This document shows positions 981 through 14,124 of a stretch of DNA of 38,499 nt, piece after piece (the stretch's first letter is position 1; each line of letters starts with the position of its first letter). The translations under genes and the position numbers were made by a program. The notes beneath the pieces are model-generated. The model saw only the letters and a program-made list of their open reading frames with translations. It did not search any database and was not told the DNA's origin. Where the stretch lies: the NCBI GenBank assembly GCA_023663685.1, contig JAMPHB010000001.1, positions 681,469-719,967 on the forward strand. The letters are read 5' to 3'. Origin of the DNA: Blautia sp. (GTDB taxonomy: Bacteria > Bacillota > Clostridia > Lachnospirales > Lachnospiraceae).

Positions 981-3512
981 CTATTTTTCATTTAAATATG
1001 TGAAAAACACATTTCCCGCTCCTGAAAACCATTCGCCCGCACTCTCGTAAGAAATAGATTTTGTTGTATTTTCTGCCGGGTCATAATAATAAATCATATT
1101 TGCAGAATATCCGGTCACCAGCACCGCGCTCTCACTCCCCGTCATGGCAAAGACCGGACTTCCCTCACTGACATAATAAATAATCTCATTTACGGTACAG
1201 CCCGATACATCCAGCACCACTCTCTCCCGCAGGGTCGTCTCCAGCGCGCTTTTCGGCGTCTCGCCATTGTCGATCAGCTCCTTCACGCTCAAGCCCTCTC
1301 CGGCGTATTCCAGCATGGCTGAAAGCGCCTGCACCACCTGGGAGGAGCCCTGATCCGCATCATTGACCTTTACTCCGGCAAAGGCGTTCTGAACCGTCTT
1401 GCGGGCACGTCTCCAGATATACTGCTGGTTATTGTCCACCACCACCCCAAGACTCTCATTTGCGAAAATAATGGCGTCCGCAATATCGTCGGTTGCCAGA
1501 AGGACATTCCCCTTCACATAGACATAAAAACGCTCCTGCACCTCCCTCTCCTCGAAGGAGAGAATCCTCGGCGTCTCCTGCACAATCACCTTGGAGGTGA
1601 CCATCACCGTCTTGTCGCTCTGTGCCGCATTCTGCAGGACAATCCTCCGCTGGGTCTGCTTGTCCTCTGTCACAAGCTGTCCAACAGCCACACGCCCCTC
1701 TGTGTCCGCCACGCGGTTCATAATTGCGTCCGTTCCACAGGCCAGATACTGTCCGCCGGATTTTTTAAATAAATTTACTGTAATCGTATAGCCCTCCACC
1801 GAAATGGACTCTATTTTCCCCTTCTGCGGCTGATAGGTTTTCAGAACCTCCCGGCTCTCCTGCGAGGTCGCCAGAATCTTCAAGAATTTCATTGGAAAAA
1901 CGGTGTTGCCCGCCGCGTCCACCTCCACCTTTTCCTTTGGTGCCGCCCCGTAAATGAAATCTTCGTCGATAAATCCCAGCGGCCGCAGATACACCTTGCT
2001 CTCCTCTGTGATTTCATAGACGGAGCCGTCGGAAAAATCCATCAGATGAATCACGTCGCCCGCATACTCCCTCTCGCTGTCCGTCCACGCAAAATAACGG
2101 CTGGATGCGGAGGTCTTACAGCAGCTTTCCTTGAGATTATCGACCTCCACCTTCGTCTCTAAAGTATCGAGGTTTATACTGTACAGCCTCCGGTCTATCA
2201 TCAGGTATAAAATGCCCAGATCGTTCACATACATGAGCTGTCCCATCTCGGCTTTTATGATCTCGTAGGATTTTTCGGAGGGGATAAATACCTCCTCATT
2301 GACCGTGTGCACAAGTCCGTCGTAGTGGTACACACCGATCCCTGTCTCCCCCTCATGGCCGCCGCGGTTCATATAGCCGTACACGACAAAATCCACGCTT
2401 CCGGCCTCGTCCACGCGCACAATTTTGATATCGTGCTGGTTCCAGTTTTCCCGGGCGTCTATGCCCTCCGCCCCGCGAAAGCTGAACACCTGCGCGATTT
2501 TACCGCCCAGACGGTCGTAGCACCAGAGCTCGCCCTCCTGCACAAAGGCGATGATGTCCCCCGTCTCGCTGGCGGCGTACTCGATATCGGCGCTCCGAAT
2601 CCCCAGCTGAATGCTTCCTGCATCCGAGAGAAAGGTATTTGTCCCCCGAAAAATCTGATTCATTCTGCGCTCAAAATTCAGCACATACATCCGTGTGCTG
2701 GTAAGCCGCAGGCGGTAGTATTCCTCCACATTGTAAAATTCCATCTCCCCGGCGGCATTCTGGTTTGTCATAACATAGTGAAAAGTCAGCACATTATAGG
2801 AATCGTTCAGCTCCTTGAAGGAAATCATCGGCTGTGTCAGTTTTTTCCCCGGAAAATCCGCCCATGTAATCTGCCTTAGGGTACAGCTTAAATCCACATA
2901 ATCCAGCGTAGTGGCGTCTCCGGTGGCCGCATCCATGTAGGTGGGAATAAACTCATCCGCGTCCTCCCTGAATGTGTACTCATGGAATTTTTGCGCAAAC
3001 TCCAGACAGCCCGCCGCTGTACCGTCGGTCTGCATAAGCCTTGTATAATAATAAAAGCTCTCCTCCCCGGAAGTCACCGTGAGGATCACCACATACTCCT
3101 GATCCTCCTCCAGCACATTCTGAATTTCAATATTTCCGAAGGCTGTCTCCCCCTCCGTCCGCAGATCCTCCACATCATTTTTTGCCACCAGCCGCTGGGA
3201 ATCCATGCTGCGGATTTCACAGTGGACGCCGTCTATTTTCCGCCCATAGGTCTTAACCGTAACAGGCAGCCGCCTCTCGCTGCTCACCGGGGTGATGCTG
3301 TCCCGCATGGCGGTGGCGTCCATCTCATTCACATAACCGTGCAGCTCATTGACCGGTGTATTCTCGTAAGTAAAGCTGAGTATCGGAAGGCTCGCCTCCG
3401 GCATGGAGGTAGTCAGATCCTGCTTGTCCTTGTTCAGCGTAAATGCAAAGATTGTGAGGGCCGTAAAAAATACGACAAGCATCACAATCGGTTTAATCAT
3501 TTTTCGTTTCAT
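981..3512 (-). CDS. Large membrane-anchored extracytoplasmic protein with C39-like C-terminus
   Basis: This is an 843-aa protein. Residues 7-26 form one hydrophobic segment (uncleaved anchor or signal peptide), so the rest should be outside the membrane. Residues about 300-640 are beta-rich, with repeated short strands and Trp/Tyr/Gly pairs that suggest a propeller-like fold. Residues 720-843 resemble a C39/papain-like peptidase (the stretch ending AMLEYAGEGLS, then EGSPVFAM, SAVLVTGY, IYYYDP). The places where the family has catalytic Cys and His hold Ser (GSSQ, 722-725) and Ser-Ala (795-796), so it is probably inactive. The start has AAAGGA about nine bases upstream. I do not recognise the family, and the domain assignment is an inference from motif order. 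Confidence 0.75.
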   Translation of the reverse strand: MKRKMIKPIVMLVVFFTALTIFAFTLNKDKQDLTTSMPEASLPILSFTYENTPVNELHGYVNEMDATAMRDSITPVSSERRLPVTVKTYGRKIDGVHCEIRSMDSQRLVAKNDVEDLRTEGETAFGNIEIQNVLEEDQEYVVILTVTSGEESFYYYTRLMQTDGTAAGCLEFAQKFHEYTFREDADEFIPTYMDAATGDATTLDYVDLSCTLRQITWADFPGKKLTQPMISFKELNDSYNVLTFHYVMTNQNAAGEMEFYNVEEYYRLRLTSTRMYVLNFERRMNQIFRGTNTFLSDAGSIQLGIRSADIEYAASETGDIIAFVQEGELWCYDRLGGKIAQVFSFRGAEGIDARENWNQHDIKIVRVDEAGSVDFVVYGYMNRGGHEGETGIGVYHYDGLVHTVNEEVFIPSEKSYEIIKAEMGQLMYVNDLGILYLMIDRRLYSINLDTLETKVEVDNLKESCCKTSASSRYFAWTDSEREYAGDVIHLMDFSDGSVYEITEESKVYLRPLGFIDEDFIYGAAPKEKVEVDAAGNTVFPMKFLKILATSQESREVLKTYQPQKGKIESISVEGYTITVNLFKKSGGQYLACGTDAIMNRVADTEGRVAVGQLVTEDKQTQRRIVLQNAAQSDKTVMVTSKVIVQETPRILSFEEREVQERFYVYVKGNVLLATDDIADAIIFANESLGVVVDNNQQYIWRRARKTVQNAFAGVKVNDADQGSSQVVQALSAMLEYAGEGLSVKELIDNGETPKSALETTLRERVVLDVSGCTVNEIIYYVSEGSPVFAMTGSESAVLVTGYSANMIYYYDPAENTTKSISYESAGEWFSGAGNVFFTYLNEK

Positions 3513-3690: not shown

Positions 3691-4155
3691 TTACCACCAC
3701 CTTCGGCAGCGGCGGTGCCTGCATCTTCTGCGGTAGAGCTCGTTGCCGAAAAGCACTCCCACCATACTGCACAGCCAGCTGTCCCGGCACTCGCTTTGCC
3801 CCGCCGCCGCAAGGCCGGGTCCCGCGATCTCCATGGGCACCATATCAAAATACATCTTTCCCGCAGGCTTTTCCGACACCTCGTCGGCAATCTTTTTGTA
3901 GAGCCGGTCAACCACCATCTGAATCATCAGACGGTCCGGCTCCTCGTCATAGATCCGGCTCCCCTCATATTCCAGTTCGTCCAGACGATCCTCCACCTGC
4001 TTCATCACCATCTGGGTCTCCTTCGGATAATACGACTTCATTCGTTCGATATCCTTCTCATACTCCATCTCCGTCAAATACATATTCTGCATGGGATAGG
4101 TCATATAAAAGGGGATCTTCGGGTAGGCTTCTTCCTTATAATCCACGGCGTTCAC
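3691..4155 (-). CDS. Conserved hypothetical protein with Cys/Arg-rich tail
   Basis: This is a 154-aa cytoplasmic protein. The N-terminus is Tyr/Pro/Met-rich (FYMTYPMQNMYL). It is followed by an acidic helical region at about residues 35-95 (CKE-like spacing, ELEYEGSRIYDEEPDRLM) and a basic Cys-Arg tail ending RRRCRHRRCRRWW. I recall proteins of this shape in Clostridia near sporulation or coat genes, but I cannot name a family with certainty. The start appears to be GTG at 4155 with a weak TTGGAG upstream. The tail is in frame with the acidic body and reaches TAA at 3691, so I read it as genuine rather than a frameshift. Confidence 0.7.
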   Translation of the reverse strand: MNAVDYKEEAYPKIPFYMTYPMQNMYLTEMEYEKDIERMKSYYPKETQMVMKQVEDRLDELEYEGSRIYDEEPDRLMIQMVVDRLYKKIADEVSEKPAGKMYFDMVPMEIAGPGLAAAGQSECRDSWLCSMVGVLFGNELYRRRCRHRRCRRWW

Positions 4156-4210
4156 TCCAAGCTGTTATCACTATAGCATATGCAAAAGCCCCCCGGTCTG
4201 TGCAAAGCAA

Positions 4211-6466
4211 TCAGCCGCCGATTATTTTTACCGTAATCTCCTCGTAGCGGGGATAGCCCTCCTGCTCCATGCGAACCGACAGCGTTTTGTCCGCCGTCTT
4301 GGAAAAGGCGTAAAGATTACATCCGCCCTCCCGGTACTCATAATTTTCACCGTTGTCCTGAAAATGCAGATACTCCGCAGGCTCCGGAGTGGCAAGAAGT
4401 GTGAGCCTGCGATAAGGCTTTTCCCCCACATAGGCCACTGCTTCATACATCGGTATCATGCTCCCCGCCCGCATATACATCGGGCACAGCTCTATCGGGG
4501 CGTCCCTCAGAATATACTGCTGCCCCTCGAGCCGTTCTCCCGTCCAGTAGTCGTACCAGACGCCCTCCGGCAGATACACAAGCTTCTTCGTCGCGCCCTG
4601 CTCCACCACCGGCGCCACCAGCAGATTCTCGCCCACCAGAAACTCCCCGTTCAGATTGCGGGTATTTTCATCCTCCTCATAGTGCAGCACCAGCGGCCGC
4701 ATCACCGGAAGCCCGGTGCTCTCCCCCTGATAAAACAGATCGTAGAGATAGGGTAAAAACTGATAGCGCAGCTTCACATAGCTCCGGTAGATATCCAGCG
4801 TCTTTTGCCCGAACATCCACGGCTCCTGCCGCCTTGTGCCCTTTGCGGAGTGATTGCGGAACAGCGGGGAAAATACCGCCGCCTCCACCCAGCGGATTAA
4901 AAGCTCCGGCGTCACGTCCGCGCCAAAGCCGCCGATATCGGTTCCCGCAAACGCAAAACCGCTCATTCCCAGATTGCAGAGCTGGGGAATCATCATCTGC
5001 AAATGCGGCCACAGGCTCTGGTTGTCCCCCGTCCACACGGTGGAATATTTCTGGCTGCCCGCATAGCAGGCTCTCGTGATTACAAAGGGGCGCTTGTCCG
5101 AAAGCCTGCGCAGCCCCTCGTAGGTCGCCTTACTCATATAATGCCCGTAGACATTGTGCATCTCCGCGTGGGTTGTGGCGCGCGCACCGTCGTGGAATAC
5201 CACATCTTTCGGCAGCTCTCCGCGAAAGCTCGCGGGCTCGTTCATATCGTTCCAGATCCCGGCCACACCGATGTCCAGAAGGAATTTGTGGTGGTCTCCC
5301 CACCAGTCCCTGACTTCTTTTCTGCCGAAGTCGGGATAGTTGGACTCACCCGGCCAGACTACGTTCACATACACTTCTCCCCCGGCGTCCGTGGCAAAAT
5401 AGCCATTCTCCACACCCTCGTCATGCATGAAATAGCCCTGCTCCTGCTTTGTCCCCGGATCAATGATCGTCACCACTTTGATGCCCTTTTCTCCCAGCTC
5501 CGAAATCAAAGCCCCCGGCCTGCCGTAATTCTTTTCGTCCCAGGTAAATACCTTAAAGGCGTCCATATAGTCAATGTCAAAATGCAGCACATCGCAGGGA
5601 ATGTCGTTCTCCCGCATCCCCGCCGCAATCTCCCGCATATCCTCCGCGCTCCCGTAGCCCCACCGGGACTGCTGATAGCCCAGCGTCCAGAGCTGGGGCA
5701 GGGGCGTGCGTCCGGTCAGACCGGTGTAATTTTCCACCACCTTCGGCATGGAGTCTCCGCCGATGATATACAGATCCAGATTGCCGTCGTCCGCACCGTA
5801 GTAAAAATAATCCGGCTGCTCCTTTCCCAGATTCACATAGCTGTGAAAAGTATTGTCAAAAAACATGCCGTAGACGCCCTTCGCCTTCTTGCAGATTAAA
5901 AACGGGATGGACTTGTACAATGCATGGAAATCCTCCGTGTGCGCCTGCGGAATATCCGAGTTCCAGTTTTCATACTCATAATATTTTTTATTTAAAAATC
6001 CGGTCTTGTCCCCGAGGCCATAGAAATCGTCCCCCGCATCCAGCGCGCACACAAGCTGCACCGGATAATTCCGCGAGCCCATACCGGAGGTGTCGTGCCC
6101 CTCCGCCTCCAATAGCTTTTTGAGCTGCTCGTCCACCGCACCCGTCACTGTGCGTCCCCTGTCATAGGTGGAAAACAGCCTGTTTTCCGAAGCATCCCAC
6201 GCCTGCATCGCAAGATCCTCCCCGAAGGTGAACCTTAAGGCGTCCGTCGCCACGGTGAGCGTCTCCCCCTCCTGCTGCACCGCAATGACCACGGGAATCC
6301 CCTTCTCCCCCTCGATGGCCTTGGAATAGTGCTCTCTTGTCCTGCGGGGGACAAAGACATTGACAATCTCCGGGGTGATGACTTTTACGATTACCTCCCC
6401 CTTCTCATAGTGAATCAAAACCTCGCTGCCGCCGGACTGGCAGCTCCTGATTTTCCCCAGCTCCAT
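4211..6466 (-). CDS. Glycoside hydrolase family 31 (alpha-glucosidase-like)
   Basis: This 751-aa protein lacks a signal peptide, so it is cytoplasmic. The N-terminal GH31 beta-sandwich spans about 1-240. The (beta/alpha)8 barrel carries the family signature GIWNDMNEP with nucleophile Asp407 and the acid/base Asp481 in WTGDNQS. The insertion HFDIDYM (about 295-301) is also typical. GH31 members cleave alpha-linked glucose or xylose from oligosaccharides by a retaining mechanism. Alpha-glucosidase is the likeliest activity, but alpha-xylosidase cannot be excluded from sequence alone. It is last in an operon after an SH3 protein whose stop codon lies two bases before this start. Confidence 0.92.
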   Translation of the reverse strand: MELGKIRSCQSGGSEVLIHYEKGEVIVKVITPEIVNVFVPRRTREHYSKAIEGEKGIPVVIAVQQEGETLTVATDALRFTFGEDLAMQAWDASENRLFSTYDRGRTVTGAVDEQLKKLLEAEGHDTSGMGSRNYPVQLVCALDAGDDFYGLGDKTGFLNKKYYEYENWNSDIPQAHTEDFHALYKSIPFLICKKAKGVYGMFFDNTFHSYVNLGKEQPDYFYYGADDGNLDLYIIGGDSMPKVVENYTGLTGRTPLPQLWTLGYQQSRWGYGSAEDMREIAAGMRENDIPCDVLHFDIDYMDAFKVFTWDEKNYGRPGALISELGEKGIKVVTIIDPGTKQEQGYFMHDEGVENGYFATDAGGEVYVNVVWPGESNYPDFGRKEVRDWWGDHHKFLLDIGVAGIWNDMNEPASFRGELPKDVVFHDGARATTHAEMHNVYGHYMSKATYEGLRRLSDKRPFVITRACYAGSQKYSTVWTGDNQSLWPHLQMMIPQLCNLGMSGFAFAGTDIGGFGADVTPELLIRWVEAAVFSPLFRNHSAKGTRRQEPWMFGQKTLDIYRSYVKLRYQFLPYLYDLFYQGESTGLPVMRPLVLHYEEDENTRNLNGEFLVGENLLVAPVVEQGATKKLVYLPEGVWYDYWTGERLEGQQYILRDAPIELCPMYMRAGSMIPMYEAVAYVGEKPYRRLTLLATPEPAEYLHFQDNGENYEYREGGCNLYAFSKTADKTLSVRMEQEGYPRYEEITVKIIGG

Positions 6467-6468
6467 AT

Positions 6469-6912
6469 CTACTCCTCCGTTTCTGTCTGGGAAGTGACCT
6501 CCTCCAGATAGTCCATGCTTACATAACCCACCTGTCCCTGATAGTCCACGATGGCCCAGCTGCCGTCCTGCTCCTGCCCGATCAGCTCAAGCTGCGTCCC
6601 CTCGGTGAGCACCGTGAGCACCTCGCACTCTGTATTCGGCTCCGCGCGCAGATTGACGCCGGTGGTCGTGCGCATGACGGGCTTGGGTTCCGGCTCCGGT
6701 TCTGTCTCTGTCTCCGTCTCAGTATCCTCCGTGGGCGCGCCGGTCATCTCTGTGCTCTGGGAGGTCTGTGTATCCTGCGTATCCGGCTGGTCTGCCGCAA
6801 GTTTTTTTCTCACCAGAAATACCGCGCCGACAATCGCTGCAATCAGCAGCAGGCACGCCGCGGCAAAAATCACTCTCGCGAGAATTACGTCTTTTCTGTG
6901 GCTCTTTTTCAT
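6469..6912 (-). CDS. Membrane-anchored SH3b domain protein
   Basis: This is a 147-aa protein. A cytoplasmic basic N-terminus is followed by one transmembrane helix (about 12-35). A Thr/Glu/Pro-rich linker (about 40-78, TETETEPEPEPKP) follows, and then a bacterial SH3 domain (about 80-140) with GVNLRAEPN, GTQLELIGQ and WAIVDYQGQVGYV. Such domains usually bind peptidoglycan, so the protein probably sits at the cell surface. AAGGAGG lies seven bases before the ATG. It is translationally linked to GH31, although a functional tie between them is not obvious. Confidence 0.88.
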   Translation of the reverse strand: MKKSHRKDVILARVIFAAACLLLIAAIVGAVFLVRKKLAADQPDTQDTQTSQSTEMTGAPTEDTETETETEPEPEPKPVMRTTTGVNLRAEPNTECEVLTVLTEGTQLELIGQEQDGSWAIVDYQGQVGYVSMDYLEEVTSQTETEE

Positions 6913-6924
6913 TGCCCTTCCTCC

Positions 6925-7779
6925 TTATCCTTCGCTCTCCCTGCACACGATCTTCGTAAGCTCCGGCTGTATCCGGTTCCGCTCAAGGATCAGCTCCCCG
7001 ATGGAATCCGCCGTGATCCTGCCGCTCTTCGGATTTATGACACTGTCGATCCTGCCGGTGATATCAGCGTCCACGGCAGAGTACTCAAAGGCAAGCGTGG
7101 TATGGATGAGCTTACAGTTTCTCATCACCAGATTGTCAATATAGCAAAGCCCCTGCAGGCTCTCGATCGTACAGTTTTCCAGCAAAAGATCCTTCGCATT
7201 CCAACCCAGGTACTCCCCCGAGATGAAGGAATCGTACACCTGCACATGCTCCGTATTCCAGAAGGCGTCCTTCGACATGAGCTTCGAGTTGCGGATTGTA
7301 AGGTTTTTCACCCCGTCAAAGCAATAGTTCCCCACCAGCTCAAAGTGATCCAGCTCCATGTTCTCACAGCCCATCGCGAAGTAGTCGCCCTTTGCAAACA
7401 CCCCGTCAAGCCTGACGTTTTTACAGTACCAGAGCGTCTCCTCCGCGTTGGCAAAATTCACATGCTCCAGCGTCAGCCCGTCACAGCGCCTGAAATTTTT
7501 CGGTGCCTCGACCAGCGCATTTTTTACTTCTACATTGTCCGAGTACCACACGCCCGCCCTCGCCATCTCAAACCAGCTGCAGTCGAATGCCCGGATATTT
7601 TTACAGTACCAGAGCGGATATTTCCATTTGAACATGCTGTTGTACAAATCAATATCACGGCTCTCCTTCAGGGGGGATTCCCCGTCGTCGAAGATGGTAT
7701 CGTAGATTTCCAGCCCGCCGGACGCAAAAAGCGCCCGCTCCCCCGTCAAAAATTCCTGATGAATCTGTCTCCTGTCCAT
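6925..7779 (-). CDS. DUF3737 family beta-helix protein
   Basis: This roughly 284-aa protein has short repeating strands of about 20 residues (WYCKNIRAFDCSWF, WYSDNVEVKNA, WYCKNVRLDGV), characteristic of the DUF3737 right-handed parallel beta-helix. The N-terminal signature GESPLKESRDIDL...FKWKYPLWYCKN is the family hallmark. The family function is unknown. The start is uncertain: ATG at 7779 is preferred, and an in-frame TTG at 7791 with AAAGGA close by is the alternative. It is probably the first gene of the operon with the SH3 protein and GH31. Confidence 0.9.
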   Translation of the reverse strand: MDRRQIHQEFLTGERALFASGGLEIYDTIFDDGESPLKESRDIDLYNSMFKWKYPLWYCKNIRAFDCSWFEMARAGVWYSDNVEVKNALVEAPKNFRRCDGLTLEHVNFANAEETLWYCKNVRLDGVFAKGDYFAMGCENMELDHFELVGNYCFDGVKNLTIRNSKLMSKDAFWNTEHVQVYDSFISGEYLGWNAKDLLLENCTIESLQGLCYIDNLVMRNCKLIHTTLAFEYSAVDADITGRIDSVINPKSGRITADSIGELILERNRIQPELTKIVCRESEG

Positions 7780-7840
7780 GTCCTCTCTCAAAGTTCCTTT
7801 CTGAAATCATTATCTCAATAATTCGTCCATCTCTAAATTT

Positions 7841-10540
7841 TCACCGCATACCAGACCTTTGCAATCCAAGTCCCCGAAGATAAATATCCGGAAAATGATA
7901 ACGAATAGGATCGGATAGTTTGAGCTGATAACGTCTTAAAATCCCAATATTAATTAAATTCCGTATTTCCTCCATCGGATTTGAAAAATCGCACCTTCGC
8001 AAAGCATCCTGCAGTATTCCTTCATCCACCGGTGATCGTCGAACAGTATCCTTCAAACTATCCAAAAAAACGGCATATTCCTGAAATTCCTCTTTTAAAT
8101 CTATTACCCTTTTCTCAGACACTTCTGGAAGTACATCCTCAAAGCACCTCGGTCGAATAATACCCTTCCCTATTGTCTGATTCCCTTCTTTTTGCGGCCC
8201 TGTCTCTTTATCTGCGGCCTTTGCAAAAATATCAATCATACTTCTGGGCACAATGACACCCTGCGTATCAGAAAGCCTGTTTTTAAACCAATTATAAGTA
8301 GATGCCTTATTGCCACTTCCCATCTTAACACCAATAAGCGCAGACAGCATCCTTCTATTGTCGCCCTCATCCACGTTTGGAATATATCCCAATCCATCTA
8401 CTTTACTAATTTGCTTTAAAGCAATTTTTTCATATAGGCTTTTCACATCATCCGATATACTAATGGCTCGTTTCCAGATCATTGCAAACAGCTGGTCGTA
8501 ATCCCACGCTATAGTGACCGAATAATTTTTTAGCTTAACCTTATCCGGGACATTCACCTCTCTGTCATAAATATCTTTGCGCAGAAAAATCCTGCTCCGG
8601 ACATTCTGCATAGCCGTCTCATTCTTATACCACATATCAATTAAAGCACTGACAAATTTTCCACGCTTCTTAGGTTCCACAATCCGGTCTAATGCATCAT
8701 AAATAATGGTAACTACTGTGGTCTTCTCCTTATAGTATTGATCAACCTTCTCCAGTACTTTTTTCATCTGGTATGCTGTTTCCCCCGACCATTCACTGTA
8801 AAGCTTTGCGGCAGACACATCATTAAATATACCGCCCACAGGACTATCAGAAATAATACAGCTTAGATTACTGTCGTTCTCCAGTAAAATTCTTAATGTT
8901 TCGTAATACAGAAATGCTCTAATTTGTTCTTCATTTTTTAGGCAGCTAAAATCGTCAACATAATTCGTTGCCTGCGAAGTACCTACAATCCATTCTGTAT
9001 GTTCGTACTGTTCTGTGGTTACATTCAAATATTTGGCAAGCGCTTTTGCATATTCATTGTTCTTTAATGCACTAAATAGTGCAGTCTTTCCTACACCTTT
9101 TTGACCGAGAACCAAAAATTTCCTCTGATCAAAAATAAACGTGTAACCTTTTAAAGGATAAAAATTGTTCTGCAAGTCCTTTTCAGTTGCAAATTCATCT
9201 TCTGCTGCCGCTGTCTCCAGTCCCCCCATAATTTTAGAGAATGCTGACGCAATTTTCTTAGCGTTGTCAGTATCCACTATCACAGCTGCGTCGGCGGGAT
9301 CATTTTGAAGTGTATCCTCAATTACATTCACAATCCTGCCATACTCTGTTTCCTGTTCCTCATATCCTTTTAAAAGCTGCTCTGTTGAGGCAACCACCTC
9401 CAAAGCTGCATTATAAGTTATATGAATCGGATAATGCTCCGCCGTTTCATCTTCCACAAGGATTTCTTCCGCCTGATATCCTTTATCACATTTTCTCAAC
9501 GCATGGTAGGCGCCGTCAATGTACATTTTCTTTTCTATCTGCGCCAGGGATTCGTTGACCGGAACTTTGCTGTTAATTAATAAAAATGGAGTACCACTAC
9601 TCTTTAGAATAGGCAAAGTCATCTGCATTCCTTCGATATTTTGCCTGCTTCCATAGAAAAACAATAATGCAAGATCCGAATATCTGGTTAGTGTAATTCC
9701 GCCAATCTGGTGAATACCTGAGCGCGTATCAATGAAAATATAATCCGGTTTCAAAAACAAGTCTATCTTCGACAATAATATATCAATAGGCGTCTTTTCT
9801 TCTTCATATGCCGGAACATCCATGTCAAACCGCATTAAGTTTTTACGGTAGACTTCAATGTCATTTTTCACCGCCGTCCCTACCGCAGGCAGGATGTATA
9901 TCTCACCTCCATATTGATTGACATTGCAATATTCGCCTATAGGATACAAATATTCATCAATATTGATTTCTTCCTGATAAACATTACTCTCCACCAAAAA
10001 ATCCAATATTCCATATTGTGACAAAGCATCTTCCGGAAAGAAACTGGACACCCCTGGGGCTTCCAGATCAAAATCCAGTATAGCAACCCTTTTTCCCCTT
10101 CTCGCGACTCCGATCGCAGACATCATCATTGTAGTTGTCCTGCCAACGCCTCCCTTAAAAGAATAAAAGCTTACCAGCTTGCTGGACAAAGCACACTTTT
10201 CTTTCTTTCTTCTTTTCGCATCCCAATATACATTGGTGATATATTTTTCAAATATCCACACCCGCTCCTTAATAGGAGTGCTTTCCTGCTTCCATATTTC
10301 AATTTCCTCTTTCGCAAAATAATTTTCCTCGATTGATTCACAGGAATTCAGCCATACATCAATCGTACCTCTCAATTCCTGTTCCAGTTGAACGACCAGT
10401 TCCTTCCGGGAAGTATCCATATATATAATAATTTTTCCATACACATTTTGGACAATATACAGCTCCAAATCGGTATATTCTTCCGCAAATTTCATAGCTG
10501 TTTCAACGGTTTTGTCCAAAACTCCATTATTATGTATCAT
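7841..10540 (-). CDS. KGGVGR-motif double P-loop NTPase
   Basis: This is an 899-aa protein. Residues 1-120 form a small alpha/beta region of unknown type. Residues 122-400 are a MinD/ParA-like (SIMIBI) ATPase with deviant Walker A FKGGVGRTTT (128-137), DFDLEAPG (156-163) and DYIFIDTRSG (266-275). The Arg in place of Lys in KGGVGK defines a known variant class. Residues 470-720 are a second NTPase with canonical P-loop LGQKGVGKTAL (478-488) and a hydrophobic strand ending IIYDALDR (Walker B). The C-terminus (about 720-899) looks helical or winged-helix. The start overlaps the upstream HEPN-like stop by four bases (ATGA), which implies translational coupling. Base composition is visibly AT-richer than flanking genes. 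A role in phage or plasmid conflict is inferred. Confidence 0.88.
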   Translation of the reverse strand: MIHNNGVLDKTVETAMKFAEEYTDLELYIVQNVYGKIIIYMDTSRKELVVQLEQELRGTIDVWLNSCESIEENYFAKEEIEIWKQESTPIKERVWIFEKYITNVYWDAKRRKKEKCALSSKLVSFYSFKGGVGRTTTMMMSAIGVARRGKRVAILDFDLEAPGVSSFFPEDALSQYGILDFLVESNVYQEEINIDEYLYPIGEYCNVNQYGGEIYILPAVGTAVKNDIEVYRKNLMRFDMDVPAYEEEKTPIDILLSKIDLFLKPDYIFIDTRSGIHQIGGITLTRYSDLALLFFYGSRQNIEGMQMTLPILKSSGTPFLLINSKVPVNESLAQIEKKMYIDGAYHALRKCDKGYQAEEILVEDETAEHYPIHITYNAALEVVASTEQLLKGYEEQETEYGRIVNVIEDTLQNDPADAAVIVDTDNAKKIASAFSKIMGGLETAAAEDEFATEKDLQNNFYPLKGYTFIFDQRKFLVLGQKGVGKTALFSALKNNEYAKALAKYLNVTTEQYEHTEWIVGTSQATNYVDDFSCLKNEEQIRAFLYYETLRILLENDSNLSCIISDSPVGGIFNDVSAAKLYSEWSGETAYQMKKVLEKVDQYYKEKTTVVTIIYDALDRIVEPKKRGKFVSALIDMWYKNETAMQNVRSRIFLRKDIYDREVNVPDKVKLKNYSVTIAWDYDQLFAMIWKRAISISDDVKSLYEKIALKQISKVDGLGYIPNVDEGDNRRMLSALIGVKMGSGNKASTYNWFKNRLSDTQGVIVPRSMIDIFAKAADKETGPQKEGNQTIGKGIIRPRCFEDVLPEVSEKRVIDLKEEFQEYAVFLDSLKDTVRRSPVDEGILQDALRRCDFSNPMEEIRNLINIGILRRYQLKLSDPIRYHFPDIYLRGLGLQRSGMR

Positions 10541-11004
10541 CTGGCACCTCCGATTACAATATTCGCCACAAATTGAAAGATATATCTGCTCTCCTCGATA
10601 TATCTCTCACACCATTCCTTTTCATGCCATTTTATATGGTCACCATACCGATATGCCGGACTCCAGTGCGGATATCCTTCTGGCCCAACAAAAATGTAAG
10701 GACATTTCTTTCTGCAGTCTAATCGGTATGCGGGCGAAATACCGCCAGTCATAGAAATCCAGTTTTCTAACTGGCTGTTTAATTCTTTGGTATTATGACC
10801 AAATTCCTTTAAGTCGCTCACCGAGTAAGGCTGTCCGTCCTGCTTTTTTCCATACCTTTGTAAAATATACTTTAAGGCACACTCCATAATATAGCCGCAT
10901 AAATAACAGCAATTATAGTATTCCCCTTTTTGAAACAATATTCTGGAGTCTTTGTACATTCTTTCCATTGTCTCCAAAAAATCAACTTCTCCCATTTGCG
11001 GCAT
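10537..11004 (-). CDS. HEPN-like domain protein
   Basis: This 155-aa protein is all-helical at its core. Residues about 8-50 carry the typical HEPN helix pattern (LFQKGEYYNCCYLCGYIMECALKYIL). The usual RNase motif of catalytic HEPN proteins (Arg-x4-6-His in a helix) is not visible, and the only close match, RYGDH, has the wrong spacing. It may therefore be a non-nucleolytic HEPN acting as adaptor or binding partner. AGGGGAAC lies just before ATG at 11004. It overlaps the downstream NTPase gene by four bases, so the pair should be made together. AT-rich codon use fits recent acquisition. Confidence 0.75.
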   Translation of the reverse strand: MPQMGEVDFLETMERMYKDSRILFQKGEYYNCCYLCGYIMECALKYILQRYGKKQDGQPYSVSDLKEFGHNTKELNSQLENWISMTGGISPAYRLDCRKKCPYIFVGPEGYPHWSPAYRYGDHIKWHEKEWCERYIEESRYIFQFVANIVIGGAR

Positions 11005-11086
11005 AGTTCCCCTGCTCCCTTTATTTCATCTGTTAAAAAATCTCCTCTAAAACACTCTTTCCAATATAATGTTATATGTTATCATA

Positions 11087-11116
11087 TCTATTCCCATTTT
11101 GTCTATTCCCATTTTG
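11087..11116. repeat. 15-bp direct repeat upstream of the HEPN-NTPase unit
   Basis: TCTATTCCCATTTTG occurs twice in tandem (11087-11101 and 11102-11116) and is followed by TCTAC, the start of a decayed third copy. It lies in the 129-base gap between the deacetylase stop and the HEPN-like start. It could be a regulator site or a scar of insertion. I see no convincing -35/-10 pair for the unit here. Confidence 0.75.
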
Positions 11117-11133
11117 TCTACTCTCAATCATCT

Positions 11134-11868
11134 CTATTCTAACAGCAGCTCCTCCACCGTCACAAATTCATAGCCCTGCTCCGTCAGCGCATCGATCACG
11201 GTGAAAGCCGCCTGCACGGAGGATCCGGAGGCGTCGTGGAGGAGAATGATCGTCCCGCCCTTATCCACGGCCTTTAGAATCCGCTGTGCCACAACATCGG
11301 AATCCGTCGCGGCCCAGTCCAGGGGATCCACGTCCCACAGCACCTCAATCATGGGAACCTTGTCATTGAGCGAATCCTTCCAGCAGCCGTAGGGCGGGCG
11401 GATATAGCCCGTGTACTCGCCGGTCACGGCATAAATCGCCTCCCTCGCGGCGTCAATCTGCTTCATGGCCGCCTCGTCCCCGATCTCCCCAAAATTCACA
11501 TGCCGGTAGGAGTGGACGCCGATCAGATGGCCATCGTCGTTGATTTTTTCCACCAGCTCAGGATACTCTTCCACCTCGGAGCCCAAAAGAAAAAACGTGG
11601 CTTTTACATCACGCTTCTTCAGCCCCTCCAGCAGCTTTTCTGTGTAAACAGCATTCGGCCCGTCGTCGAAGGTGATTGCGATCTGCTTCGGCAGCTCCCT
11701 GCCCATCTCCGCCTCCTTCCCCTCGTCCTTCTTTGTGTCCGCCAGCCGGATCACCGCTTCCCACTCTATGGGGAGTCCATGCGCCGCCACCCTCCCCAGA
11801 ATAAAGGCCAGCGCGAGAATAATCCCATACGCCGCCCTCCTTCTTTTCTCTGCCCGTTTTTGTCCCAT
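11134..11868 (-). CDS. Polysaccharide deacetylase (NodB family, CE4)
   Basis: This is a 244-aa protein. Residues about 9-30 form a hydrophobic N-terminal anchor or signal. The NodB domain shows motif 1 TFDDGP with the catalytic base and zinc Asp, motif 2 HSYRH (zinc His pair), motif 3 RPPYG, motif 4 WDVDPLDW and motif 5 LLHD. All metal and catalytic residues seem present. Such proteins remove N-acetyl groups from peptidoglycan or other glycans outside the membrane. AGGTGC precedes the ATG. It diverges from the chemoreceptor gene. A role linked to mannan acetyl groups is possible but unsupported, since CE4 enzymes mostly act on amino sugars. Confidence 0.92.
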   Translation of the reverse strand: MGQKRAEKRRRAAYGIILALAFILGRVAAHGLPIEWEAVIRLADTKKDEGKEAEMGRELPKQIAITFDDGPNAVYTEKLLEGLKKRDVKATFFLLGSEVEEYPELVEKINDDGHLIGVHSYRHVNFGEIGDEAAMKQIDAAREAIYAVTGEYTGYIRPPYGCWKDSLNDKVPMIEVLWDVDPLDWAATDSDVVAQRILKAVDKGGTIILLHDASGSSVQAAFTVIDALTEQGYEFVTVEELLLE

Positions 11869-11976
11869 TGGCGCACCTGCCTGCAGTAGTTATTTACATT
11901 CTATTCCCCATACACGGCGCGTATCACCAGACGGGCATGGCTGCCCGGAAAAATACCACAAAAAACTTTCGTTTGT

Positions 11977-11986
11977 TTTAGCTAAA
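11977..11986. promoter_or_regulatory. Candidate LacI-type operator (TTTAGCTAAA) at the chemoreceptor promoter
   Basis: This perfect 10-bp palindrome lies seven bases upstream of the -35 at 11993. The longer stretch TTTAGCTAAATTTTAC is mirrored by GTAAAATTAGCTTA (12015-12028), which spans the -10 box, so two arms bracket the promoter. The same 10-mer occurs at the LacI gene promoter (28373-28382). Confidence 0.5.
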
Positions 11987-11992
11987 TTTTAC

Positions 11993-12021
11993 TTGATTAT
12001 ATGAAGAAAATGAGGTAAAAT
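11993..12021 (+). promoter_or_regulatory. Promoter of the chemoreceptor gene
   Basis: TTGATT (11993-11998), a 17-base spacer and TAAAAT (12016-12021) lie about 43 bases upstream of the start codon. It reads as a sigma-A-type promoter. I do not see a sigma-D flagellar promoter. Confidence 0.6.
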
Positions 12022-12063
12022 TAGCTTATAAAAATAAGTACTTTTCAGGGGGGATGGTTGCGC

Positions 12064-14124
12064 ATGAAAAATCACAGAGGAAAACGAAGCGGCAGCATCA
12101 TGCAGACTCTGCTGGCGGGCTTTTTTGTCCCGGTTATTTTAATCATTGTTCTGGGAGTCGTGTGCTACAATACCGCCTCCTCCGGGATTATGTCCAAATA
12201 CCGGACGTCCGCCGTCTCCACGGTATCCGCCGTGGGAAGCTACGGCGACCTGATGTGCCGCGCGGTTTCCAACAAGGCATTAGAGCTGGTCACGAACGGC
12301 AGCGTGGGCGATTACTATTCCAAATACTATAAGCGCAACGATTCGCAGTCTGCGGAGTCCTACCGCGAAGCGGCCGCCCTGCTCCGCAACGCTCTGGCGA
12401 CGAATTCCACCATGTACAGCTGCTCTGTGATTCCCGCTGGCGGCTCCTACGCCACCACCCTCTCCGGCACCATGTCGGACAATCCCGGCGAGGACTTTTT
12501 CGCCAGCCCGGAGGGCGCATTTTTCGCGGCGGACGCCGGCGCGCAGAACCAGTGGTGCGGCTATCACACTTATCTGGATGAGAATTTAAACAGCGACCCG
12601 TCCAAATACGGTCTCGCCTTTTTTCAGCGGATCAGCCACGGCGATTCGGTGCTGGTCATGGATATCAGTATGGATGCCATCCGGGATATGCTGGAGCAGA
12701 TGGACTTCGGCGAGGGCAGCATAAGAGCCGTAATCTCACCGGACGGCAGGGAGACTGCCCTTCGGCAGGGGGAGGAGGAGCTTCTTGCCGACACATGGTT
12801 TTCGGGCGAATCCTTCTATGAGGAGACGAAGGATGCGCCCGAGCCCGGATACCGGAATGTGACGATTGGCGGCGAGAGCTATCTGTATGTATACAGCTCC
12901 ATGGGCGCCAAAGGCGTCATGGTCTGCGCCCTGATTCCAAAGAACCATCTGCTCAGCCAGGTGATGACCATCAAGTATGTGACAATTGCGATTGTAATCC
13001 TTGCCGTGATCGCCTCCCTCCTGATCGGCATGTATATCTCCGCAGGCATCAGCCGGACGGTCAGAAGTATGACGGCCGGGCTGTCGCGGGTGGCGGAGGG
13101 CGATTTTTCCGCAAGCTTTCACACGAAGCGGAGGGACGAGTTCCAGACGCTCACTCAGAGCCTCAATTCCATGCTCCAGAGTATGCGGGAGCTGATGCGC
13201 AATATGAAACAGTTCTCCTCAAAGGTGAACGATATGGCGGGCAATGTGCAGACCAAAACCCTGACCGTGAACGACTCGATCGAGCATGTATCCACCGCCA
13301 TGGGAGAGGTGTCCAAAGGCGTGCAGAGTCAGGCGCAGGACACCGAGAAGAGCAATGAGAAGATGATCGACTTTTCCGGCTCCATCAACATGGTCACCGA
13401 CCGTACCTCCGATATGGGAAGTGTCGCAGACCGGGCCATCGACGCCGTGGGGCAGGGCAAAGCCATCGTAGAGGAGCTGAACCGGAAATCCAACCACACG
13501 GTAGAGCTCACAGCCAACCTTGTGGACGATATCCGCGCGGTGCAGGAGAATTCGCAGGAGATCACGAACTTTGTCGCAATCATCAGCAGTATCGCAGACC
13601 AGACCAACCTGCTGTCACTGAACGCCTCCATTGAGGCCGCCCGGGCAGGGGAGGCAGGCAGGGGCTTCTCCGTCGTTGCGGAGGAGATCCGCAAGCTGGC
13701 GGACCAGTCCAATGAATCCGCAAGCCAGATCCAGCACATTGTGGAGCACATTGTCGCCACCACAGACCAGACCACAGCCTCCGCCCAGAAGACCGAGGCG
13801 ATGGTCAATGAGCAGGCGCGGGCACTGGAACAGACCTCAGAGGTATTTACACTGATTCAGGAGAGCGTCGGGGAACTGGTAGAAGATATCAAGTCGATCA
13901 CAGATCATCTGACTCAGATTCTGGCAGAAAAAGATGTGGTGGAGGCCTCCATTATGAATATCTCCGCCGCCTCCGAGGAGGTAGCCGCCTCTACAGAGGA
14001 GGTCAACACCTCCATGGGCGCACAGGTTTCTGCCGTGCAGAGCCTCAAGCAGGAAGCGGAGCTCCTGAGCAGGGATGCCGAGGAGCTCAACGCCGCAATG
14101 GAAAGATTCCGCATTGAAAATTGA
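12064..14124 (+). CDS. Methyl-accepting chemotaxis protein
   Basis: This is a 686-aa transmembrane chemoreceptor. TM1 spans about residues 13-36, an extracytoplasmic sensor region of about 260 residues follows (probably Cache-like, type not certain), and TM2 lies near residues 302-322. A HAMP linker (about 323-376) and a long coiled-coil signalling domain come next. The hairpin tip reads [20 protein letters not shown] and continues into [15 protein letters not shown]. The start is taken as ATG 12064; an in-frame TTG at 12058 with AGGGGGG four bases upstream is an alternative. It is the only plus-strand gene between 1 and 26 kb and it converges on the GGDEF gene. A palindrome shared with the LacI promoter hints at sugar-linked control. 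Confidence 0.93.

Follow-up and report, generated by a model that had tools for sequence, protein, structure and literature searches.

The catalogued system closest to the locus described here is PDC-M28, an unvalidated PADLOC-DB candidate. According to the available part of PMC12988326, which cites the preprint 10.1101/2024.01.29.577857 for them, PDCs are candidates derived from "guilt-by-embedding" that are mostly unvalidated, with validation pending for most of the set discussed there, and the available part of PMC11811056 describes them as unpublished candidate systems. A literature search with preprints outside its scope found no published account of the make-up or action of PDC-M28; no relevant paper came up under the exact terms KGGVGR, PDC-M28 and Sll1717, none described it among the papers listed in wider searches, one of which returned PMC3710099 alone, and a pair of HEPN and twin-NTPase genes did not appear in the accessible sections of PMC13092281, PMC12839542 or PMC8195603. 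Further points of comparison come from HEPN systems covered in the available part of PMC3710099: 1) the AbiV/HEPN-T proteins, for which an upstream H together with the R has been proposed as an alternative active site, 2) the HEPN-MNT toxin-antitoxin systems, in which the MNT gene is almost always located 5', and 3) the dyad of the MAE_18760 HEPN with a ParA/Soj ATPase, which has been proposed as a toxin-antitoxin system.

The present locus lies in a 38,499-nt stretch of Blautia sp. DNA (the window) and consists of two intact minus-strand ORFs, with a HEPN gene upstream of a gene for an 899-aa protein (Table 1). When compared with the PADLOC models, the HEPN protein matches PDC-M28A (E=6.6e-11), whereas residues 5-413 and 445-855 of the 899-aa protein match PDC-M28B (E=7.4e-53) and PDC-M28C (E=8.3e-35), respectively. 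All three components are thus adjacent, in one orientation and in the order A-B-C, membership being defined here by component matches and their order and not by PADLOC's own system rule. The PDC-M28 models are each of single-gene length, whereas B and C form a single protein in the window. The B and C models each match 43 of 43 aligned fused proteins, the main A model matches 52 of 58 aligned HEPN relatives, and the fused form is the majority form in our sample. The pair therefore belongs to an already catalogued anti-virus candidate, although the original prediction did not assign it to a named system. Other elements of that prediction stand, namely an ATGA-overlapping gene pair that is AT-richer than its surroundings and inserted between surface-type genes. 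The overlap would be expected to couple translation of the two genes, at 39.4% GC the pair contrasts with five flanking genes measured at 52-59% and is among the lowest-GC 3-kb stretches of the window, and it is flanked by a polysaccharide deacetylase gene on one side and a DUF3737 gene on the other. The short direct repeat that had also been reported exists as a 15-nt tandem repeat at 11087-11116, but not as the insertion footprint it might have been, since the closest genome searched (G061) carries a single copy in the stretch compared and the repeat consequently looks like slippage. A further minus-strand ORF of the window (981-3512; 843 aa) has a weak C39-like match and no Pfam match above cut-off.

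Table 1. Coordinates of the gene pair and its parts within the window.
Feature	Position	Strand	Remarks
Inserted stretch, approximate ends	7792..11133		~3.3 kb; flanked by the deacetylase and DUF3737 genes
HEPN gene (PDC-M28A)	10537..11004	minus	155 aa; 5' gene of the pair; invariant E41, H70, R119, Y120
ATGA start/stop overlap, 4 nt	10537..10540	minus	End of HEPN gene / start of fused NTPase gene
Fused NTPase gene (PDC-M28B + PDC-M28C)	7841..10540	minus	899 aa
N-terminal region of PDC-M28B, residues 1-120	10181..10540	minus	Outside NCBIfam domain, inside PDC-M28B match (5-413)
KGGVGR MinD/ParA-like NTPase, residues 121-308	9617..10180	minus	Walker A K129-R134, D156xD158, D271
Sll1717-family P-loop ATPase, residues 443-870	7931..9214	minus	GQKGVGKT 479-486, YDALD 614-618, R654

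The arrangement found in the window is conserved among its relatives. A genome scan was seeded with the window protein and a relative from G004, and the best 80 of at least 540 relatives were kept. Among these best 80, B and C are fused in 61 and split in 19, and 72 are immediately preceded by a HEPN gene, which is no more than 20 nt away in 60 of the 72 and shares the identical 4-nt overlap in 29. Because the partners and their order are the same in 72 of the best 80, a chance arrangement is excluded, and the adjacency of homologs that had been proposed as a check is evident. As for loci that depart from this pattern, two without an upstream HEPN gene begin at a contig end (L084 and L087), one has a transposase-like gene in its place (L053, by eye), one has a HEPN-like ORF only at E=0.22 (L092), and in three (L054, L090 and L091) the upstream sequence is present and HEPN was not found in it. 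In L078, HEPN adjoins a broken B gene, which was scored as fused in the linkage count and as split in the tree. That tree, built from 78 C domains (57 fused, 21 split) by a quick method and with long branches flagged, contains three changes between the fused and split forms, a value as low being reached in 0 of 500 shuffles, and a single split clade accounts for 19 rows. Both forms can also be found together, as one cyanobacterial contig (L048) carries a split copy (3697-7016) and a fused copy (9169-12328) ~2 kb apart. At L183 (G159, 4526-6207), HEPN and B occur without C near spore-germination-like genes (by eye), in what is a reduced or decayed form.

When examining its distribution, it is also evident that the HEPN and twin-NTPase unit is mobile and moves horizontally. 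In G061, the region is colinear with the window, insert included, at 94.2% identity over 8,957 alignment positions. In contrast, the deacetylase and DUF3737 genes lie ~80-100 bp apart with no insert at two sites in G005 (an assembly listed at 4% contamination) and at one site in G027, both of the same genus. In G010 (L164), a different insert of ~11.6 kb, with several histidine kinase/response regulator-like genes (by eye), occupies the same interval, which may mark the junction as prone to insertion. Among the remaining genomes of the genus that were compared, the two flanking genes are on separate contigs, far apart, or one is absent. The neighbors of the pair in the close relatives L022-L026 likewise differ from those of the window (by eye). 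A core gene at a fixed chromosomal place, the outcome that would have counted against the original prediction, is rejected by these empty sites and differing flanks. Within the one genus there are three distant versions, i.e. that of the window, a fused one in G004 with 38% identity, and one of the split clade in G016. A threshold of E<=0.001 gives matches in 51 of 60 genomes, though nearly all of these cover just a short ParA-like stretch; both halves are present in 2 of the 59 other genomes, and a C-like gene occurs in G006 with B missing. At E<=1e-60, matches were found in 3 of 397 genomes of the family, the window's own included, and in 1 of 391 of the class, which is its own only.

When the two genes are compared with G061, dN/dS is ~0.09 in the fused protein and ~0.05 in HEPN, where changes are few; synonymous divergence amounts to 0.14 and 0.05, respectively, as against higher values of 0.19-0.42 in three flanking genes. 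These values show purifying selection that maintains the pair, and exchange at a later time is possible. Sequence identity by itself does not prove recent transfer, since MetRS of the L022 genome is as similar to that of the window's genome (75%) as the fused proteins are to each other (76%); the argument for transfer thus rests upon the empty sites, the differing flanks, and the tree. Among 72,556 plasmid records, 34 yielded tblastn matches, of which only 4 cover at least 80% of the query. In eight of the 34, chosen among the better matches, a small gene is located just upstream of B in every case, with seven of the eight matching PDC-M28A, and integrase genes are found near the pair in four. 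E. coli genomes queried with two plasmid-borne relatives returned nothing useful, and no match was found in phages, a single viral-contig scan confirming none.

Turning to the proteins themselves, the NCBIfam models AAA_KGGVGR (NF047398; 157.4 bits, cut-off 90) and ATPase_Sll1717 (NF047389; 114.4 bits, cut-off 75) match the 899-aa protein at residues 121-308 and 443-870, in agreement with the MinD/ParA-like domain bearing a KGGVGR Walker A and the second canonical P-loop NTPase that had been predicted. No variation is seen among the 43 aligned fused proteins in the KGGVGR motif, D156, D158, D271, GxKGxGK, D615, D618 and R654, bearing in mind that KGGV belonged to the search pattern used for relatives and R134 did not, and that "Walker-B-like" for YDALD 614-618 is a label assigned in the present analysis. 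The first domain shares its KGGVG loop, a signature Lys and switch-like motifs with the MinD/ParA ATPases. However, at the position of the P-loop lysine in aligned MinD-like chains, all 43 fused proteins carry an arginine, R134 of the window protein. STAND profiles gave weak matches to the protein (PF01637 at 19.1 bits, cut-off 33.2; nSTAND3 at E=0.11).

The HEPN protein, also as predicted, matches Pfam PF05168 (E=2.1e-6, 28.3 bits, cut-off 22), as do 20 of 58 aligned members at E 0.01, and it has no visible Rx4-6H motif, the classical signature of HEPN RNases. The window HEPN reads RYGDH at the relevant site and, together with its nearest relatives L022-L024, follows RYG[DE]H; Rx4-6H is present at the RY site in 3 of 73 HEPNs and absent there in 70. 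What the original prediction had missed is that E41, H70, R119 and Y120 are identical in all 73 rows (71 distinct), which were collected by profile and are therefore biased towards sequences keeping the motifs. These rows are 79 matches minus six that were dropped (one copy duplicating the window, an additional short ORF, three ORFs that are truncated or partial, and one of 558 aa). In the 558-aa ORF (L073, 7983-9659), HEPN is possibly fused to another domain. The retained R119, upstream H70 and acidic E41 provide, in 73 of 73 rows, the features of the HEPN-T alternative site, and the window HEPN thus fits that proposal as set out in the available part of PMC3710099. With such a candidate site, the protein does not appear clearly non-catalytic and is possibly an RNA-cutting toxin. 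RNase activity is nevertheless a prediction, as most of these HEPNs have no Rx4-6H at the usual site, and the invariance of the four residues may reflect the fold, since the set extends to the compared PF05168 HEPNs in general: five MNT-associated examples from related genomes have E, K, H and Y in 5/5 and R in 4/5. PDB profile searches with the HEPN alignments gave one match at E=0.16 in one search and none in the other.

Despite these parallels, the pair is distinct from each of the described HEPN systems. AbiV and AF0298-like HEPN-T proteins have in common with the window HEPN the retained R, the missing classical H, the upstream H and the acidic residue (PMC3710099, available part), whereas the partners of the window HEPN are P-loop NTPases; AbiV membership is rejected by a score of 15.1 on NCBIfam TIGR04498 (cut-off 27). 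The HEPN-MNT systems share a PF05168 HEPN as well as E, K, H, Y and mostly R. Membership in this group is rejected, as the window HEPN has no adjacent minimal nucleotidyltransferase, its neighbors being the NTPase gene and the deacetylase gene, and it is itself the 5' gene, whereas the MNT gene was 5' of HEPN in 9 of 10 HEPN loci checked by eye (the tenth had no visible MNT). Two more PF05168 HEPN genes of the window's genome (L187 and L195, on contigs C19 and C22) each follow an MNT-like gene (by eye). The MAE_18760 dyad similarly places a HEPN beside a SIMIBI-type ATPase, but, as described in the available part of PMC3710099, it keeps Rx4-6H and has its ATPase gene 5'; the window pair shows neither and carries a second, fused ATPase, so this membership is rejected as well.

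Based upon these features, the pair is on balance probably, if only just, a mobile immunity module of the PDC-M28 type, in which an NTPase-gated HEPN RNase would act on RNA in the infected cell. The fused NTPases would form a nucleotide-state sensor or switch, its MinD-like half presumably serving as a binding-type switch, with the P-loop Lys replaced by Arg and the signature Lys kept, and its Sll1717 half as an ATPase. In the resting state, the NTPases would keep HEPN inactive and, upon an invader cue, release or assemble it; HEPN could then act on RNA via E41/H70/R119 (and perhaps Y120), an alternative active site of the AbiV/HEPN-T type, thereby stopping translation in the infected cell. 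It is conceivable, with somewhat less than an even chance, that this amounts to a distinct class of HEPN immunity, i.e. one with an RNase toxin of the AbiV/HEPN-T type that is controlled by two fused P-loop NTPases rather than by AMPylation or cyclic nucleotides, the MinD-like switch among these NTPases having an arginine fixed in place of its P-loop lysine. A different division of labor, still serving defense, would have HEPN as a non-catalytic RNA- or protein-binding adaptor and the NTPases as the active part, a MinD-like or STAND-like machine assembling on invader DNA or membrane. Both P-loops are indeed invariant in the fused proteins, Rx4-6H is missing from the RY site of nearly all HEPNs, and L183 offers an H-B unit without C. 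However, a candidate catalytic set identical in 73 of 73 rows that fits the AbiV/HEPN-T proposal (PMC3710099, available part) makes an adaptor unlikely.

A role in immunity is also suggested by the company that some copies keep. On the plasmid pTs417, the HEPN, B and C genes are inside BREX-2, with pglX on one side and the BrxC/PglY and PglZ genes on the other, and at L047 they are inside an Hma operon, after HmaA (1e-134) and before a PDC-M48B-like gene, HmaB and HmaC, although the L047 C gene extends across two overlapping ORFs and is possibly broken. L024 adjoins JetA2-B2-C2-D2 of Wadjet II, L102 adjoins hsdR and L106 adjoins a TIR protein gene; together, these cases do not constitute a random sample. 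The PDC-M48B/LmuA-like gene of L047 (12973-14001, before HmaB) places two candidates within one Hma operon. A scan of 148 neighbor genes of 100-900 aa at 15 loci, a size limit biased against large defense proteins, produced few PADLOC matches at 1e-15, largely PD-T4-6, with each model matching at most two genes; single or double matches besides PD-T4-6 included mad6, MkoA, SspA and DndA, among the families listed (25 of 38). Of the seven neighbors above 900 aa at these loci, two match PADLOC models, namely a methyltransferase/PglX-like protein (L031) and a DpdE/ZorD-like helicase (L088). As uncontrolled counts, these figures support neither enrichment nor its absence. The original prediction of a conflict or defense module is partly supported: the conserved, mobile HEPN and twin-NTPase unit behaves like such a cassette, and a broad defense-island association did not emerge from the 15-locus scan.

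The same data bear upon the possibility that the pair resembles a toxin-antitoxin system or is an addiction module, serving mainly to make its host element persist and yielding defense only as a by-product. Usual antitoxins are far smaller than an 899-aa partner with two NTPases, which counts against such a role. The copies within BREX-2 and Hma operons also argue otherwise, and we consider addiction improbable in spite of the overlapping two-gene layout, the plasmid matches with their nearby integrase genes, and the proposal of the HEPN-ParA/Soj dyad as a toxin-antitoxin system (PMC3710099, available part). An accessory stress or surface regulator with no tie to mobile elements, to which the position between deacetylase and DUF3737 genes and the weak defense signal of the 15-locus scan would be suited, is very improbable given the differing flanks of L022-L026, the empty sites within the genus, and the sparse occurrence in the family.

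Our results provide PDC-M28 with an anatomy, H-B-C (HEPN, B and C), in which B and C are mostly fused among the best 80 of at least 540 relatives, as well as with invariant residues for every part and with evidence for its mobility from empty sites, multiple versions within a genus, and copies located in BREX-2 and Hma operons. Should the HEPN protein prove to be an RNase, the pair would contribute a type of switch to immunity based on HEPN proteins and put the alternative active site proposed for them in 2013 to the test.
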